Below the pieces are notes generated by a model. That model was not told the origin of the DNA. It did not search any database and worked only from the letters and a program-made list of their open reading frames with translations. This document shows, piece by piece, positions 2,207 to 9,784 of a DNA stretch of 64,000 bases. The DNA is from Cryomorphaceae bacterium. GTDB lineage: Bacteria > Bacteroidota > Bacteroidia > Flavobacteriales > Schleiferiaceae. Numbering within the stretch: the stretch's first letter is position 1; each line of letters opens with the position of its first letter. The stretch lies in assembly GCA_017858515.1 (NCBI GenBank), contig JAFMBM010000005.1, positions 1-64,000 on the forward strand, given 5' to 3'. The translations under genes were made by a program, and so were the position numbers.

Positions 2207-2232
2207 GTGCAACGGCTGCTGGTGTTGTGATG
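2207..2232 (-). repeat. Truncated/degenerate attC-like site at the end of the DUF2007 cassette
   Basis: Minus strand CACAAC-ACCAGCAG-CCGTTGCAC: R''-like CACAAC and CCGTTG as at the other R' boundaries, but only about 26 nt. Confidence 0.35.
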
Positions 2233-2238
2233 TCGTAT

Positions 2239-2646
2239 TTATTTAAATTCACTACCGCAATTTTTGCATTTGTAAACAGTCTTGTAGTAAATTGGAAATA
2301 CCATAAACATAAAAGAAAAGATTGCAGATAAAATTCCTTTTATCCCTTTCATTGACTTAAAACTGCTATAAATGTCTTCTGATTCACATTTGGGACACTT
2401 GATAACTTCTCCTTGGTCATTTGTTAGAGCGGATTTTACCGTCTCGTCAATGATTAAACTCGCTTTATCTAGATCCGATTTATTAATCTTCAATTTAATT
2501 CCGCCAACAGTTACGTTGTATAAAGGGTAAAGTCCAACTATATTTTCGTCAAACAGAAAGCATACAATATTCTCGCTTTCGAGTTTAGACCTCATCATAT
2601 GAGCCTCAATCGAGTTGTCAAATGTCTTAATAGTTACTAATTCCAA
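2239..2646 (-). CDS. DUF2007-type (putative signal-transducing) protein with C-terminal zinc-ribbon/TM segment; cassette gene
   Basis: MELVTIKTFDNSIEAHMMRSKLESENIVCFLFDENIV... typical DUF2007; CPKCES / CKNCGSE Cys pairs; TTG start. Confidence 0.7.
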   Translation of the reverse strand: MELVTIKTFDNSIEAHMMRSKLESENIVCFLFDENIVGLYPLYNVTVGGIKLKINKSDLDKASLIIDETVKSALTNDQGEVIKCPKCESEDIYSSFKSMKGIKGILSAIFSFMFMVFPIYYKTVYKCKNCGSEFK

Positions 2647-2661
2647 GTCTCATTTTTTTTA

Positions 2662-2745
2662 GCACCGCAACGGTTCTGCGGCAGGAAAAGTGGCGCCTTT
2701 CTCGAGTGTAATTGTGCGCCATTTTTTTACCGCATGTTATAGAGC
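2662..2745 (-). repeat. attC site of the DUF4375 cassette
   Basis: Minus strand GCTCTATAAC-ATGCGGTAAAAAAATGGCGC...GGCGCCACTTTTCCTGCCGCAGAACCG^TTGCGGTGC; imperfect inverted repeat with asymmetric spacers next to the core. Confidence 0.75.
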
Positions 2746-2747
2746 GT

Positions 2748-3299
2748 CTATTTAAATTCATTTTTGTTCGCTTTCACGTAAGTCAGTAATAATGAAGAAA
2801 TATCTTCCTCATATTCAAAAAACTGCGTATCACAATTGTTCCAAGTTTCTTCTGCCTTTTCTTCTATTTTATCTAGTATGTTTTGTCTGGATGTTCTATC
2901 ACTTGGAATTTTAGAGTCTGGCCATTCAGCATACACACGAGATACAATTTCCGCAGTTTTATTCGCTCCAATTAATTTTAGCGCATTCAGAGTTTCATTG
3001 GCATAATCACCACTAGAGTTCCAAAAAAACTGATGGAATCCTCCATTATTCACTTCACGCTCGAGATTTTCAACAAACAATACAACTTTTTCGGCATCAC
3101 TTAAAACATCTAGATTGTCTCCGTAATCGGATATTTCGTTGAGTTTAGAATCTAGTTCGATAATCGCCTGAATTGGATCTTCTATTTTTAATATTTCTTC
3201 AATCATATATGTTGAATCGCTTTGATTGTCTTGACCAGTACAGTTAGTGAAAATTATCAGCGAACTTATAATAAATGTTATTTGTACTCTGGTTGTCAT
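2748..3299 (-). CDS. DUF4375 (DMP19-like) lipoprotein; cassette gene
   Basis: Signal peptide ending TNCTG; NNGGFHQFFWNSSGDYANETLNALKLIGA motif. Confidence 0.7.
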   Translation of the reverse strand: MTTRVQITFIISSLIIFTNCTGQDNQSDSTYMIEEILKIEDPIQAIIELDSKLNEISDYGDNLDVLSDAEKVVLFVENLEREVNNGGFHQFFWNSSGDYANETLNALKLIGANKTAEIVSRVYAEWPDSKIPSDRTSRQNILDKIEEKAEETWNNCDTQFFEYEEDISSLLLTYVKANKNEFK

Positions 3300-3305
3300 G
3301 CTCTA

Positions 3306-5284
3306 GTAGAGTAGAGCCTGACATCCAATCGCCTTAGCTCTTTCTTTCAAAAGTAGCCTATGTTCATGAATGTCAGCGCCCCCTTCATCAAACCGTACGT
3401 GAACTTTTCGCTCATACGGCTTACCGATAGACTTCTTCATTGAGCTTTCGCAAGGGTTTTCAAGCGGGCATATTTTTCTATGTCTAGCAATTGGTAAAAC
3501 TTTACCAAATTCTCATAGGGGCGCTGGCGTAGCTCCCGATGCGCTTTCCTTCCTTTACTTTTCATCCACTTAAATAGTTTGTAGTCTAAATGCTTTTTGA
3601 TCACTTTTATGGTCTCCCAGATATGGGTCACTTTGCTAATAGAGAAGTAATTCAACCAGCCAATGAGCAGCTCGTTTAGCTTCCATACTATCCACTCTAT
3701 TGTCCAATGCCTGCGTTTGGCTAGCAACTCGCGTAGCTTGGTATAGAGTTTCGATCGCGACTTCATACTCGGACGTACATTGGTGTAGTTTTTCTTGTTC
3801 CACTCAAACTTTGATGGAACCTTTCTGAACTCAAAGCCTAAAAAGTGCAGACTGCTCTTACTGGTATGCAAGAGCTTGGTCTTCTCTTGGTTTAGGCTCA
3901 GACCCATGTTCTCCATTATTCTATTGATGTAACTGAGTATTTCTTTACTGAAATATCCCTTGCCCATCAGTAGAAAGTCATCGGCATAGCGTACAATGCG
4001 GATGTTGGCTTTTGCAAATTTCCCATCGGGATTATTTACAATTCGGTCAAAGGCGTGGAGATAAATGTTCGACAGCAAGGGCGATATTACTCCGCCTTGT
4101 GGACTCCCTTTATGACTCGCTTCTAGCTGGCCATTGGGTAATGCAACGGGGGCTCTTAACCATTGCTGTAGTAACCCTAGGATGCCTTGGTCTACCAACC
4201 GCTCTCTCAGCAATATAAACAGCTTACCATGGTCGATACTGTCAAAATACTTCGACAGATCTGCATCATAGACAAATTGATGTCCTGCGTAAATGTTTTC
4301 TTTTACTGCCTTGATCGCTTCCTTTGCGCCTCGTTTTGGTCTAAATCCATACGAGCTGTCGCAAAAATCCGCCTCCCATAGTGGCTCTATCAGCATCTTT
4401 ACTGCCATCTGAACCACTCTGTCGCGTATAGTCGGTATCCCCAACTTCCTACCCTCTCCTTTCTTCTCTTTAGGGATAAGTACTTGCCGTACGGCTGAAC
4501 TCTTGTAGGTGCGGTCTGTGAGCGATTGCTGTATATCTTCCAGAAACAAGCGCACTCCCCTCTTTTCGATAGCATCAAAACTCTCATTGTCTACACCTAC
4601 TCCCTTCGAGTAGTTTTGCCTGACCCTGCGGTACGCTTCCTCTAGGGTACTGTCTTCACAGAGTTTTCCGTAAAGACTATACGCCTTAAAGCTACCGTCT
4701 CGCTTGGCTCTAATGTATAGCTTCCTCTGGAACACACGAATTTGCTCATCGGTGCTTACCACCAATGGACCTGCTGTTAGACGCTTGTCAATACCTGTCT
4801 TTCTGTGTTCCATATAAGCTCGTCTAAAGTAGAGTCCCTTCCCTAGTTCAGGGTTTTGTTGTCCCTAACATCATCGGTACTATGAACTCCTCCGACTTCT
4901 CTTCTAACAGCTTGTAATTTCGTAGTACTTATATACATGCTTTTAAGATTGCCATCCTTTGCTAAAAGAGACCTCCCACGTTTAACACCTATCCATCTAT
5001 ACTAACGCCACCCCTTTGACTCCGGTAATTTACTACAACTCATACAACTGTTTATCATTGTAGTATGGCAGGGTTCCAGACCGTCAAAACGGTCCCCAAA
5101 TCTACGGGTACACATATCGAAGCTACTTGCGGGTTCACGCTTGCGCATTGCGGCTTGAGTATTTGATTATACGGAGCTTCAGCGTACTCCTCACAAAGTC
5201 TACTGTCCGTACATCTTCAGGGTGAACAGTCAATTGCCCTGGTAGGATTCTCACCTACTGGATAGATGCCACCTCGTGGCACAC
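3306..5284 (-). mobile_element. Group II intron 1, inserted inside the R' core box of an attC (GTTG^TAGAGC)
   Basis: 5' end GTGTGCCACGAGGTGGCATC..., RT ORF, domain V-like AAGCCGTATGAGCGAAAAGTTCACGTACGGTTT, 3' end ...GCTCTACTCTAC; removing it rebuilds GTTGTAGAGC, complementary to the cassette's own R''. Confidence 0.8.
3437..4813 (-). CDS. ltrA: Group II intron reverse transcriptase/maturase
   Basis: RT motifs SYGFRPKRGAKEA, GSPQGGVISPLLSNIYL, IVRYADDFLLMG; C-terminal maturase region LIGWLNYF; no HNH motif. Confidence 0.92.
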   Translation of the reverse strand: MEHRKTGIDKRLTAGPLVVSTDEQIRVFQRKLYIRAKRDGSFKAYSLYGKLCEDSTLEEAYRRVRQNYSKGVGVDNESFDAIEKRGVRLFLEDIQQSLTDRTYKSSAVRQVLIPKEKKGEGRKLGIPTIRDRVVQMAVKMLIEPLWEADFCDSSYGFRPKRGAKEAIKAVKENIYAGHQFVYDADLSKYFDSIDHGKLFILLRERLVDQGILGLLQQWLRAPVALPNGQLEASHKGSPQGGVISPLLSNIYLHAFDRIVNNPDGKFAKANIRIVRYADDFLLMGKGYFSKEILSYINRIMENMGLSLNQEKTKLLHTSKSSLHFLGFEFRKVPSKFEWNKKNYTNVRPSMKSRSKLYTKLRELLAKRRHWTIEWIVWKLNELLIGWLNYFSISKVTHIWETIKVIKKHLDYKLFKWMKSKGRKAHRELRQRPYENLVKFYQLLDIEKYARLKTLAKAQ

Positions 5285-5418
5285 CAACGGTTTTTTGGTA
5301 TGAAATGTATGGCATTACGGAGCGAGTCGCGTTCCACCGATGCCAAAGATAAATGCAAGCTACAAACCTTGTTTAACCTACTGACTGCCATATATTTTAT
5401 ACCAAATGTTGGGCTTTC
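5285..5418 (-). repeat. attC site of the HigBA cassette (R' box split by group II intron 1)
   Basis: Minus strand GAAAGCCCAACATTTGGTATAAAATATATGGCA...TGCCATACATTTCATACCAAAAAACCGTTG; arms near-perfectly complementary. Confidence 0.8.
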
Positions 5419-5426
5419 GTGTTTTA

Positions 5427-5735
5427 TCAGTCGAACTTGATCGAGATGTTTAAATGTCCACCAAGTCCGTCGTTAATTATTCTCTGTAAGGTTGAAAAAC
5501 GGATGTCTTTTAAGTTCTTTTCAAGTTTTGAGATATAAGATTTATTCGTTCCAGCTAGTTGAGCTAGCTGCTCTTGAGTCAGTCCACGTTCTTCTCTTGC
5601 TTGTTGAATGAGAACTCCAATTTTAAACGCTTCGTATTCATTTTCAAACTGTTCTCTTTCATCAGTTCCAATTGCACCAACTTCTTGGTTGATAAACTCG
5701 TCAAGGCTCGTCAAGTTTTTATTCTTTGTCGTCAT
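5427..5735 (-). CDS. HTH (XRE/HigA-like) antitoxin; cassette gene
   Basis: GVLIQQAREERGLTQEQLAQLAGTNKSYISKLEKNLKDIRFSTLQRI; overlaps the upstream toxin gene; likely start MTTKNK. Confidence 0.8.
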   Translation of the reverse strand: MTTKNKNLTSLDEFINQEVGAIGTDEREQFENEYEAFKIGVLIQQAREERGLTQEQLAQLAGTNKSYISKLEKNLKDIRFSTLQRIINDGLGGHLNISIKFD

Positions 5736-6060
5736 AATATTCCTTTTTAATTTGTTCAGCTCGTTCAATTTCACTTTTAGGAGTTTTTTGAGTCTTCTTT
5801 TGAAAGCCATGTCCAACTACAACTAAATTGTCAATATCGAAAAAGCAAAAGATTCGAAAAATGTTGTTTCCAACTTGAACTCTTATTTCATAAATCCCTG
5901 ATGAGTTTTTAATGAATTTAAAATAAGTTTCAGGAATTTGGTCCAACTCTTCAATCACTCTAAAAGTCCATAAAATCTTCTTTTTGACTTTATCTTCTTG
6001 TTCGTTGTAGAATGACTTAAAATAGTCCTTATAGAAGTAGAGTTGTCGTGGTTTACTCAT
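5719..6060 (-). CDS. RelE/HigB-family toxin (phage Gp49-like); cassette gene
   Basis: GIYEIRVQVGNNIFRIFCFFDIDNLVVVGHGFQKKTQKTPKSEIERAEQIKKEY is typical of this family. Confidence 0.85.
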   Translation of the reverse strand: MSKPRQLYFYKDYFKSFYNEQEDKVKKKILWTFRVIEELDQIPETYFKFIKNSSGIYEIRVQVGNNIFRIFCFFDIDNLVVVGHGFQKKTQKTPKSEIERAEQIKKEYYDDKE

Positions 6061-6138
6061 CTGGCAAAATTACCAAAAGTAGTCCAATTGAGCAACTCAT
6101 GTTTTCGAGTCCTTACATGAAGCCCAACGGTTTGCGTA

Positions 6139-8041
6139 ATCGAGTAGGCAGGGGGAATTTCACCCCAAGCCTCTCACAGAACCGTACGTGATAGTCTCCC
6201 ATCATACGGCTCTTGTTGTACAAATCTAAGCTACTACATTAATGTCAGAGAAGCTCCAATGGTAAAACAGAGTTGGATGTTGTTTCCTAACTGTTGCTAA
6301 CCATTTGTATCCTTTTCTGATGCTGGTTTTGTAGCGCTTATACCTTTTCCTTGCCCACCAAACTAATCGAACACTTAATAGTCTAAAGACTTTTGTGAGT
6401 TCGTACATCTTAAATTTACCATAGTAATTAACCCATCCCCTAATCATCGGATTGAGGTATTGAGCTACGCCTACAATGCTTTTAAAACTTAATTTGCTCA
6501 CGTTCAATTCTTCCAGCTTGTCTGCGATTCGTTTTCTTGAACTTATACTTATAGCACAGTCGTACCCTAAAAATAAACCACCTGTCTTTTTAGATATGGC
6601 TGTTCGGGGTTGAAAAGAATAGCCCAAAAAGTCAAATTTGACTATTGGGTAATTTCCTTTTCTTCGATAGTCGCGGCAATAGACAAGTTTTGTCTTCTTT
6701 GGATGTAATTCCAAGATTACCGATTCCATACGTTGATGCACTAACTCTAGTATTCGTTCTGCATGAGCTTTGCTTTTACAGTGTATAATTACATCATCGG
6801 CATAACGAATGTATTGTACACTTCTATCTGTTGTCTCTAACCATTTATCAAAAGCATAATGTAGAAATAGGTTTGCCAATAATGGGCTTATTACTCCGCC
6901 TTGTGGCGTGCCTTTTCCTTGCTTTTGGATTAGCTCTCCAGATACTTTAAAAACGGGTGCTTCTAACCATCTTTTAATGTAGAGTTTTACCCAGTTTTCG
7001 GGTACGTGTTTCTCTACGGCAAGCATCAGTTTGTTGTGGTCAATATTGTCAAAAAATCCTTTGATGTCAAGGTCTATCACCCAGTCTTGTTTCCAACAGT
7101 TTTCTCGAACTTTTTCTAATGCCTGATGGGCATTTTTATTGGGTCGATAACCATAGGAGTTTGGACTAAATTCTGCCTCTAATCTGGGTTCTATAAACAT
7201 CTTGACTACCATTTGTCCAACCCTATCGCTGATGGTAGGCACTCCCAATTTCCGGACACTTCCGTCCTTCTTGGGTATTTCTACTTCTTTAACTGGGGGT
7301 GGAAAATAGCTCCCTGATGCCATTCGATTCCAAAGTTTGTACAAGTGTTTGCTTCGATTGGCATCAAATTCTTCCATGCTTATCGAGTCTACTCCTGCAC
7401 TCCCTTTGTTAGAACGCACTTTTTGATAAGCTGCCCAAACCATTTGGCGGCTTATCGGTATTGATTTTGTTTCATTCCATAAATTCATCCTCAAATCTTT
7501 TGAGTTGGTAAATAAAATGTTACAGTACAACCTAAGCCCTTCGCTCCAAAGCCATTACAGCCCCTTCATCGCTACTACGACTTAGTCTGCCACTGCTTAC
7601 ACTATTGGTATTTTGCCTCTAAGTTGGTCTTATTGTGCATTTTCCTTGGCATTTGTAAGCAGCTTCCCAAGTTCCGTAAATAAGCCTGAATAAAGTTCTT
7701 GCCATCTGAATGACGCCAGTCTTACAGAAAGTAAATAGGTGACTTCTGTAATCAATGATATTGCTATCATCGCTTTTAATTCTGTATCATACTTCATAAT
7801 TTTTGACTGGGGGTTCCCACTTCTCGACACCTCATCAATGGTTCACTTTCGTTCAACTCCTTTATTCCTACCTGATAATCTCGTGGACTACCTTTTCCTA
7901 AACGCTCAGTACCAAAACTATTAATTAAAGCACCTTTAGGTGGTTTAGAGCCCTCGCCTATACAACGACTCTGATGGACCTACCATCATCTTACTTACAG
8001 CATTCAACCATTTTTATTGCCGTGGTTGATTCTTGGCACAC
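6139..8041 (-). mobile_element. Group II intron 2, inserted in the stem of the first cassette's attC
   Basis: 5' end GTGTGCCAAGAATCAACC..., RT ORF, domain V GAGCCGTATGATGGGAGACTATCACGTACGGTTC, 3' end ...CTGCCTACTCGAT; removal rejoins CCGCCACAAGTCATA+TACGCAAACCGTT, complementary to AACAGCGTATATAACTTATGGCGG. Confidence 0.82.
6226..7530 (-). CDS. ltrA: Group II intron reverse transcriptase/maturase (distinct from the first)
   Basis: NSYGYRPNKNAHQAL, GTPQGGVISPLLANLFLH, YIRYADDVIIHCK; maturase region MIRGWVNYYGKF. The N-terminal ~15 aa of the listed ORF are probably upstream of the real start (MNLWNETKS). Confidence 0.92.
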   Translation of the reverse strand: MYCNILFTNSKDLRMNLWNETKSIPISRQMVWAAYQKVRSNKGSAGVDSISMEEFDANRSKHLYKLWNRMASGSYFPPPVKEVEIPKKDGSVRKLGVPTISDRVGQMVVKMFIEPRLEAEFSPNSYGYRPNKNAHQALEKVRENCWKQDWVIDLDIKGFFDNIDHNKLMLAVEKHVPENWVKLYIKRWLEAPVFKVSGELIQKQGKGTPQGGVISPLLANLFLHYAFDKWLETTDRSVQYIRYADDVIIHCKSKAHAERILELVHQRMESVILELHPKKTKLVYCRDYRRKGNYPIVKFDFLGYSFQPRTAISKKTGGLFLGYDCAISISSRKRIADKLEELNVSKLSFKSIVGVAQYLNPMIRGWVNYYGKFKMYELTKVFRLLSVRLVWWARKRYKRYKTSIRKGYKWLATVRKQHPTLFYHWSFSDINVVA

Positions 8042-8159
8042 TATGACTTGTGGCGGTTTTCGAAGCACTTTCTTGTCGGCTTGCACCAAATTTACTTAAA
8101 AGCACTAAGCTCGAATTTACTACTTTCCCCGCCATAAGTTATATACGCTGTTAGCGCCT
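8042..8159 (-). repeat. R''-side portion of the attC of the first cassette; remainder at 6128-6138 beyond intron 2
   Basis: AGGCGCTAACAGCGTATATAACTTATGGCGG...CCGCCACAAGTCATA | intron | TACGCAAACCG. Confidence 0.8.
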
Positions 8160-8163
8160 GTTT

Positions 8164-8811
8164 TTATTTTTTCTTTATATAATCGTCAGTTAAACAACCA
8201 CATACGCATTCAGGTTCGGTAAATGATAATTCTTGTCCGTTCTCGGAAATGAGCAGTTGTCTAATCTCATTCTTATCCTTAAATTTTATAAGTTTGACTA
8301 AATAACCACCAAGCCAATCGGGTTCTGTTGTAATGTTAATTTCAGTTCTGCGTTGCAACGAATCATTTCGATAAAACTCAGCAATTCTACCTTCTACAAT
8401 CTTTAGTTCCTGCTTGCAATTGCATTTAAATGGTGAATTTATTTCTCCCCAATTAGTATATGTTTCTTTCCAAGTCCAAGCACCCGATATTTCGTTTATG
8501 AAGTTTACTTTGTTCTTACTAGAAGTCAGGAAAGACAATCTTTTTTTGGCTTGGTTTGCCCAAAAGGAATTGCTGTCTGATTTTATGATTAATTCGTAAA
8601 TCACTTTCGATTCTCGTTGCTTACTTTCTTCAAGGTCTAATGCTTTTTGAAATCTCATGGAACTAAGGTTCGATATCGAGTCTAATTTCAAATCTAACGA
8701 ATCTATTTTCTGAGTCAATCTGTTGTTCTCATTGATTAAGTTGTCAGTTTCTAATTGATTACATGAAGAAATCAAAATAAGTAATGTCAATATAAGTACT
8801 ATTCTGGTCAT
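8164..8811 (-). CDS. Hypothetical lipoprotein with coiled-coil; first cassette gene
   Basis: Lipobox LLILISSCNQ; start codon 20 nt from the cassette boundary. Confidence 0.6.
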   Translation of the reverse strand: MTRIVLILTLLILISSCNQLETDNLINENNRLTQKIDSLDLKLDSISNLSSMRFQKALDLEESKQRESKVIYELIIKSDSNSFWANQAKKRLSFLTSSKNKVNFINEISGAWTWKETYTNWGEINSPFKCNCKQELKIVEGRIAEFYRNDSLQRRTEINITTEPDWLGGYLVKLIKFKDKNEIRQLLISENGQELSFTEPECVCGCLTDDYIKKK

Positions 8812-8822
8812 TTTTTTTTAAT

Positions 8823-8945
8823 AGGCGCTAACAATTGTATAACAACAACTCGTTGTTGTTATCCCTCTAATTTGCGGATAAAGTACAACGCCTTGTTGTT
8901 GTTATCCCGCCAAATTGCGGATAAAGTACAATGAGTTGTTGTTAT
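8823..8945 (-). repeat. Three tandem hairpin units (~40-43 bp spacing), candidate attI/integrase-binding region
   Basis: ATAACAACAACTCATTGTACTTTATCCGCAATTTGGCGGG / ATAACAACAACAAGGCGTTGTACTTTATCCGCAAATTAGAGGG / ATAACAACAACGAGTTGTTGTTATACAATTG^TTAGCGCC, directly abutting the first cassette. Confidence 0.6.
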
Positions 8946-9042: not shown

Positions 9043-9255
9043 TTATAAAGTATCAAACCGACTGTAAATCTCCTTTGGATTCATGATGGCTATGTGGGTG
9101 TATCTCCCTGTGCTTTCGCTGCCTCCATGCCCTAGCTAAAAGGGGCCTTGTACCGGCGCACCCCCTCTTCAAACCAATGCCTGGCAAAAGTTTTCCTTCT
9201 TTTTAATGCCCTCTTTCTTTGCGGCTTTTTGCATAGTTTGAACAACACCGCCTCT
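9043..9255 (-). pseudogene. Decayed tyrosine recombinase C-terminus (candidate integron integrase remnant)
   Basis: VQTMQKAAKKEGIKKK ... FARHWFEEGV ... LGHGGSESTGRYTHIAIMNPKEIYSRFDTL* spread over shifted frames; contains LGH and the YTH nucleophile. Confidence 0.7.
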
Positions 9256-9784
9256 GCTCTCTTGGGTTCTGGTTCGACTTTCGGAATTTACAATCGACTT
9301 ACCATGGGTGTACCAGAGGCGCAAGTCGCTACCAACTTCCTGCAGCTGAAAAAGGGGTCGGCTTTATTCTCCCTCATATGTCCATTTTCATAGACACACT
9401 TTATTGAACACTCCCTTTAAACGTTTGGCTTGGCGTCTAAGAACTTCGTGTTTTTGGCTCTTTTGGGCCAAAAATGGAGTGCTATCTACCAAACAATACC
9501 CCTGCTTTTGTTTATTGAGGAGGTATTGTTTCCGTTAGCAGCATCTGAAAGGGGCGTAAGGGGCTGCAAAAGTCCGTGTGCGGGAGTTCTGAGGTTTTAG
9601 GCGTCCCTTAGAGGCGGGCTCTTCGTTCGTGCGCTCTTGGTTCTATTTCATCCTCTTTCCATCTGCCTCTTGGCTAAGTCGTTTCCGCTTTTCCTTTCTA
9701 CTTTACCATTCTTTGTTCACCTCACATCTTTTGTCTGACTTTTCTTCCGAGCCCACAGCTGCCCAAGACGGCTGTGGATAGAAA

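Follow-up and report, generated by a model that had tools for sequence, protein, structure and literature searches.

A decaying chromosomal integron in a Cryomorphaceae bacterium and a recombinase family without the IntI patch

Does the genome of a Cryomorphaceae bacterium carry a genuine integron, and which recombinase would have assembled it? The question is raised by the first 64,000 nucleotides of contig JAFMBM010000005.1 (assembly GCA_017858515.1; this whole stretch is called the window below), where an earlier note, made from the sequence alone, read positions 2207-8832 as a chromosomal integron cassette array produced by the integrase IntI acting at G^TT in circular cassettes. Integrons are defined, searched for and surveyed via IntI, whose hallmark is an additional patch, and to our knowledge the class Bacteroidia is thought to hold almost no integrons. 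We find that the array is genuine and that it is part of a decaying integron. We put at roughly 90% the probability that it is a chromosomal integron of a family found throughout the Bacteroidia, whose recombinases do not have the IntI patch and are here called patch-less.

The array comprises four cassettes on the minus strand between 2212 and 8832, with three good attC sites and one relic site. Followed along this strand, a relic recombinase is succeeded by a repeat-rich stretch and then by cassettes 1 (lipoprotein), 2 (HigB-type toxin and helix-turn-helix (HTH) antitoxin), 3 (DMP19/DUF4375), and 4 (DUF2007). The relic (9327 to 9046) and the repeat-rich, attI-like stretch (8945 to 8833) had both been overlooked in the earlier note. 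The features are given below in strand order, with the scores of R1, a covariance model made from 29 aligned attC sites of other Bacteroidota (none from the window) that were gathered by a structure scan.

9046-9327, minus strand: integrase relic, the decayed C-terminal part of a patch-less-family tyrosine recombinase (ending LGHGGSESTGRYTHIAIMNPKEIYSRFDTL and a stop codon), with stops, a frameshift and loss of box II.
8833-8945, minus strand: attI-like stretch of palindromic and direct repeats ending TTATACAATT^GTTAGC and directly preceding the first cassette; single-strand fold z = -6.3.
6128-8831, minus strand: cassette 1, 801 nt without its intron, with a predicted lipoprotein gene (8811 to 8164) and attC1.
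8042-8159, minus strand: left piece of attC1, with R'' (AGGCGCTAAC), spacer A, L'', loop and most of L'; R1 36.8 bits, E = 3.3e-6.
6139-8041, minus strand: group II intron 2, 1903 nt, GTGTG...CTACTCGAT, in the L' arm of attC1, encoding a reverse transcriptase (RT)/maturase (7530 to 6226); matches to Rfam RF01999 and RF00029, RVT_1 and GIIM.
6119-6138, minus strand: right piece of attC1, with the last 5 nt of L' (TACGC), AAACC and G^TTGGGCTTC.
5288-6127, minus strand: cassette 2, 840 nt, with a HigB-like toxin gene (6060 to 5719), an HTH antitoxin gene and attC2; matches to Gp49/HigB and HTH_3.
5286-5418, minus strand: attC2, intact, with R'' (GAAAGCCCAAC), A, a 21-bp stem, AAACC and G^TT; R1 50.9 bits, E = 2e-9; folds on the bottom strand.
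2671-5287, minus strand: cassette 3, 638 nt without its intron, with a DMP19/DUF4375 lipoprotein-like gene (3299 to 2748; PF14300, E = 4e-31) and attC3.
3306-5284, minus strand: group II intron 1, 1979 nt, GTGTG...CTACTCTAC, just after G^TTG inside the start of cassette 3, encoding an RT/maturase (4813 to 3437); matches to Rfam RF02003 and RF00029, RVT_1 and GIIM.
2662-2745, minus strand: attC3, with a short loop, R'' (GCTCTATAAC) ... GAACCG^TTGCGGTGC; R1 30.7 bits, E = 8e-5; folds.
2212-2670, minus strand: cassette 4, about 460 nt, with a DUF2007 and zinc-ribbon gene (2646 to 2239), ending in a degenerate attC, ATCACAACACCAGCAGCCGTTGCAC.

Run over the 64 kb, R1 hits 5414 to 5282, 8143 to 8042 and 2742 to 2665 (E = 2e-9, 3e-6 and 8e-5), and nothing beyond these three attC sites at E ≤ 1; the covariance-model search that the earlier note had proposed thus finds exactly the three sites it described. 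The motif AACCGTTR by itself is not enriched in the window (5 observed vs 2.9 expected), so that this short motif proves nothing, and it is the hairpins and the model scores that do. Two simpler routes were abandoned. The sequence pattern TGGCG..CGCCA..ACCGTT performed no better over 198 relatives than its reversed control, because the stems vary by compensatory change, and structure models were needed; a MAFFT alignment of the three window sites misaligned attC3 and was not used. As the model was built from relatives instead, the window stays an independent test of it.

The sites form one homogeneous family, as had been proposed: the left spacer is a single A, the right spacer has 5 nt and often ends in AACC or AAAC, and about 121 nt separate AAC from GTT. 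When attC1 is rejoined in silico (8159 to 8042 plus 6138 to 6119), it measures 121 nt from AAC to GTT and has a 20-bp bottom-strand stem with spacers of 1 and 5 nt, as in relatives. Bottom-strand hairpins bounded by R''...AAC and G^TT, which characterize integrons, are therefore present; the extrahelical bases that the earlier note associated with them are not, since folds of the window sites contain no bulged or extrahelical bases in the stems of attC1 and attC2 (20-21 bp). Stem position 14 is A.C in all 29 training sites, whose selection did not favour A.C over a true pair, and in all three window sites (in attC3 with a one-base shift). Among 134 sites outside the training set, this position is Watson-Crick in 11%, vs 31-74% at the others. 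The top-strand A.C reads as a T.G wobble on the bottom strand. Stem covariation is seen at 21 of 22 pairs in R1 sites, a figure that is circular if taken alone, as the sites were chosen for pairing. The terminal site of cassette 4 (2232 to 2212) is degenerate and without a hairpin; its bottom strand folds weakly, and its R'' mismatches the start of its own cassette.

All the cassette boxes named in the earlier note lie on the minus strand where it had placed them: GTTAGCGCCT (8832 to 8823) and AGGCGCTAAC (8159 to 8150) at the start and end of the lipoprotein cassette 1, GTTGGGCTTC (6128 to 6119) and GAAAGCCCAAC (5418 to 5408) for the HigBA cassette 2, and GCTCTATAAC (2745 to 2736) at the end of the DMP19/DUF4375 cassette 3. 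The start of this last cassette, GTTGTAGAGC, is also the R' of attC2; it is not contiguous in the DNA and is restored only by removing intron 1 (5284 to 3306). The intron-free cassette sizes (801, 840, 638, and about 460 nt) hold as well, and so does the rule by which R'' agrees with its own cassette's start and not with the neighbour's. In 68 of 81 cassettes with an R1 site on either side, the five bases that precede AAC exactly complement the cassette's own start. The mean match to the own start is 4.64 of 5; the neighbour's start gives 2.10 and shuffled starts give 1.95. Four arrays outside the training set give 31 of 35 cassettes for the own start vs 3 of 35 for the neighbour's. R'' fits its own cassette start in 99 of 108 cassettes, while 15 fit the neighbour's. 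The complementarity of R'' and R' spans about 6-7 nt, falls to 4% at position 8 and resumes for three to four positions; the 4% is well below chance, marking position 8 as a fixed unpaired position of the family attC. Own-cassette complementarity of this kind is expected of an integron. Exchange at G^TT through circles, by which R'' and R' would come to match, is the only explanation that we know for the pattern.

The recombinase is where the earlier account does not stand: the pattern fits recombination at G^TT via circles, but the recombinases at the head of such arrays are not IntI as usually understood. No protein of the source genome reaches the TIGR02249 integron-integrase cut-off (172 bits vs a cut-off of 265). 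Its tyrosine recombinases are XerD, XerC, and one 389-aa protein encoded on another contig, C55 (65-1231). Aligned with the solved IntI structure 2a3v, the C55 protein covers with 25 residues a stretch that takes 68 in IntI, and the spacing of boxes I and II is 94-95 aa in 21 members of its family vs 134 aa in seven true IntI of the phylum, so the IntI patch is absent from this family. Its predicted fold (predicted template modelling score, pTM, only 0.50) consists of an N-terminal alpha/beta domain followed by the standard core, and the best sequence and fold matches are XerA (4a8e, 5hxy), then IntI 2a3v. In a tree, the patch-less integrases group with IntI, apart from XerC/XerD; an ancestral status of the patch-less integrases was considered and is not shown by this tree, in which the branch holding IntI is weak (83/99) and the IntI branch very long. 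Relatives of the patch-less recombinase are also present on plasmids of Acinetobacter, Klebsiella, and Aeromonas (46-49% identity over the core; one is annotated TnpF).

The relic in the window belongs to this same family (best tblastn E = 3e-7 with patch-less family queries, within a 1.4-kb region), and the attI-like stretch lies beside it. In relatives, a conserved attI, TATANNC(A/T)A^GTT, opens the first cassette and mostly lies 73-125 nt past the integrase stop. Its counterpart in the window, TTATACAATT^GTTAGC, is found 214 nt past the stop of the relic and resembles the consensus but has diverged. At 8839-8945, a 43-nt repeat, GTTGTTGTTATCCCGCCAAATTGCGGATAAAGTACAA, stands in a near-palindromic arrangement that can form one long hairpin (z = -6.3).

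A search with the C55 protein recovered 80 loci, nearly all in Bacteroidota, including Flavobacterium, Algoriphagus, Winogradskyella, Pedobacter, and Kaistella. In these loci R1 (E ≤ 1) finds 131 attC sites, 130 of them downstream of the integrase gene (280 kb) and one upstream (650 kb), and 129 of the 131 on the strand of that gene; 38 of the 80 loci have such sites. On the single-contig chromosome of one genome (G131), the integrase gene (147.4 to 146.6 kb) is followed on the same strand by about 25 attC from 144.9 to 107.7 kb (37 kb), and arrays in two others (G017 and G089) have about 12 and 17. Cassette open reading frames point in the array direction in 106 of 115 cases in relatives, the single orientation that is usual for integron cassettes. 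A patch-less integrase with six attC also occurs on a complete plasmid of Chryseobacterium sp. SNU WT5 (NZ_CP041688.1; locus L164), which suggests that the system can travel between strains.

We propose that a tyrosine recombinase of the 389-aa type would act on bottom-strand attC hairpins and on an attI, rich in repeats, some 100 nt past its own stop codon. With exchange at G^TT, cassettes would leave as circles and enter beside the integrase in one orientation. The strand may be chosen through the 1/5-nt spacer asymmetry and the fixed A of stem position 14 (for the most part A.C when read on the top strand and T.G on the bottom one), rather than through classical extrahelical bases. Judged from its sequence, the array would be an integron by mechanism, without the IntI patch in its recombinase and without classical extrahelical bases in its attC hairpins. 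With a dead integrase in cis, an intron splitting attC1 and no hairpin left in the last attC, the array would now be frozen, except if the C55 enzyme can act on it in trans.

Some observations weigh against a patch-less integron family. No R1 attC is seen downstream at 42 of the 80 integrase loci; at 29 of the 80, there are less than 800 nt of DNA there, as is expected where assemblies break at repeated sites. The C55 integrase gene ends 64 nt from the contig edge, and its own array is unreadable. No identical cassette in two contexts and no whole cassette shared between arrays was found among the arrays compared, and the strand bias in attC folding is read from sequence only. Finally, R1 has a few hits in each of 7 among 20 true-IntI genomes: it is not specific to one recombinase, and the two attC types overlap. 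This overlap would also be seen if the array were a cluster of attC sites lacking an integron-integrase (CALIN), remaining from a canonical IntI integron that had entered from outside, with the patch-less recombinase an unrelated neighbour, and true, patched IntI is indeed common in other classes of the phylum. Such an origin is improbable in our judgement. No protein of the source genome passes TIGR02249, and the true IntI (84 of 296 phylum genomes) lie nearly all outside class Bacteroidia, with one Bacteroidia genome among the matches listed, whereas R1 sites at E ≤ 1e-6 are found in 178 of 246 sampled Bacteroidia genomes (~70%), many with at least 13 scored candidates. Moreover, the 130:1 excess of attC is downstream of the patch-less gene and starts at a conserved attI, and the relic beside the window array matches the patch-less family (true IntI was not among the queries there).

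The host XerC and XerD are both present in the source genome and might mobilise the array in place of the array-head recombinase; we regard this as very unlikely, because the attC are associated with a single additional gene family at attI, the relic of which is also present in the window, and because R1 attC occur in 19 of 23 related genomes with the array-head, patch-less gene vs 47 of 129 overall. Least probable of all is that the hairpins are transcription terminators or scattered intergenic repeats. They do fold well and sit between same-strand genes, but the perfect match of R'' to its own start described above (68 of 81, and 31 of 35 in held-out arrays) is unlike terminators or repeats, as are the fixed AAC and GTT ends and the position of the sites on one side of one recombinase gene.

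Beyond the window, we lean towards the view that most Bacteroidia harbour a class-wide integron system that is run by patch-less recombinases (a pre-patch ancestral state or an independent branch), that chooses the attC strand by spacer asymmetry and the stem-14 wobble instead of extrahelical bases, and that would go almost wholly unnoticed in present IntI-based surveys. Should most Bacteroidia carry the patch-less type with its own attC, the known pool of cassettes would be a bad undercount for one of the largest groups of bacteria, and the need for the IntI patch and the choice of attC strand without extrahelical bases would become questions testable at the bench. No description of the patch-less integrase family was found in the literature searched, which did not extend to preprints and subscription journals, and priority is uncertain.

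For the phylum as a whole, IntegronFinder 2.0 reported one complete Bacteroidetes integron, that of Salinibacter ruber M1, where earlier only In0 had been found (PMC9024848). The 84 of 296 genomes with patched IntI are far above what complete-genome surveys suggest. In one genome (G202:C1:1196000-1214000, locus L176), four R1-type attC run, on the same strand, in the direction of a true IntI some 4 kb past them, a layout unlike both known arrangements.

Several known systems resemble the patch-less one. It shares with the Vibrio superintegron and sedentary IntI integrons (IntI4/VchIntIA, 2a3v) single-ORF cassettes in one orientation, bottom-strand attC hairpins with R''AAC/GTT, exchange at G^TT, an attI beside the integrase, large arrays, toxin-antitoxin cassettes, and group II introns in attC. 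It differs from them in that its integrase lacks the ~40-aa IntI patch and has an N-terminal domain of ~110 aa, its gene runs in the array direction with attI after the stop codon, and its attC have the 1/5 spacer asymmetry and the fixed stem-14 blemish, not clear extrahelical bases. XerA, XerH, and XerC/D have the same patch-less catalytic core, with XerA the best sequence and fold match; however, Xer recombinases resolve chromosome dimers at double-stranded dif, whereas the patch-less gene heads cassette arrays with hairpin sites. The window is like a CALIN in retaining only attC and a dead integrase, but it still has the relic and the attI-like stretch, and the genome encodes an intact integrase of the family elsewhere.

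The active array of the source genome is probably broken across contigs (C55 1-62 and C23 41-171). The attC on C23 (41-171) lies 41 nt from the contig edge. A second small attC cluster is found on contig C67 of this genome (locus L149), where two tandem HigBA cassettes, each followed by an 80-bit attC (4302-4433 and 5896-6027), lie between RHS-repeat gene fragments.

The two group II introns of the window share the strand and direction of the cassettes (top strand). Having inserted just after G^TTG, intron 1 now belongs to cassette 3, where 6 nt separate its 3' splice site from the ATG of the cassette gene; intron 2, which splits the L' arm of attC1, should block the folding of that site in DNA. 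As a rule, group IIC-attC introns lie antisense to the cassettes, at TTGT/T of R'' in the bottom strand (PMC7923331); the same paper mentions, by citation, a single group IIC intron on the top strand, and describes a same-orientation intron of group IIB as its own finding. The window introns also sit in attC sites, but they share the cassettes' direction on the top strand, intron 2 in L' and intron 1 just after G^TTG, and so depart from the IIC-attC arrangement. This arrangement is found on the Chryseobacterium plasmid (L164), where two copies of a group II intron have inserted antisense at TGT/T of R'', in the bottom strand.

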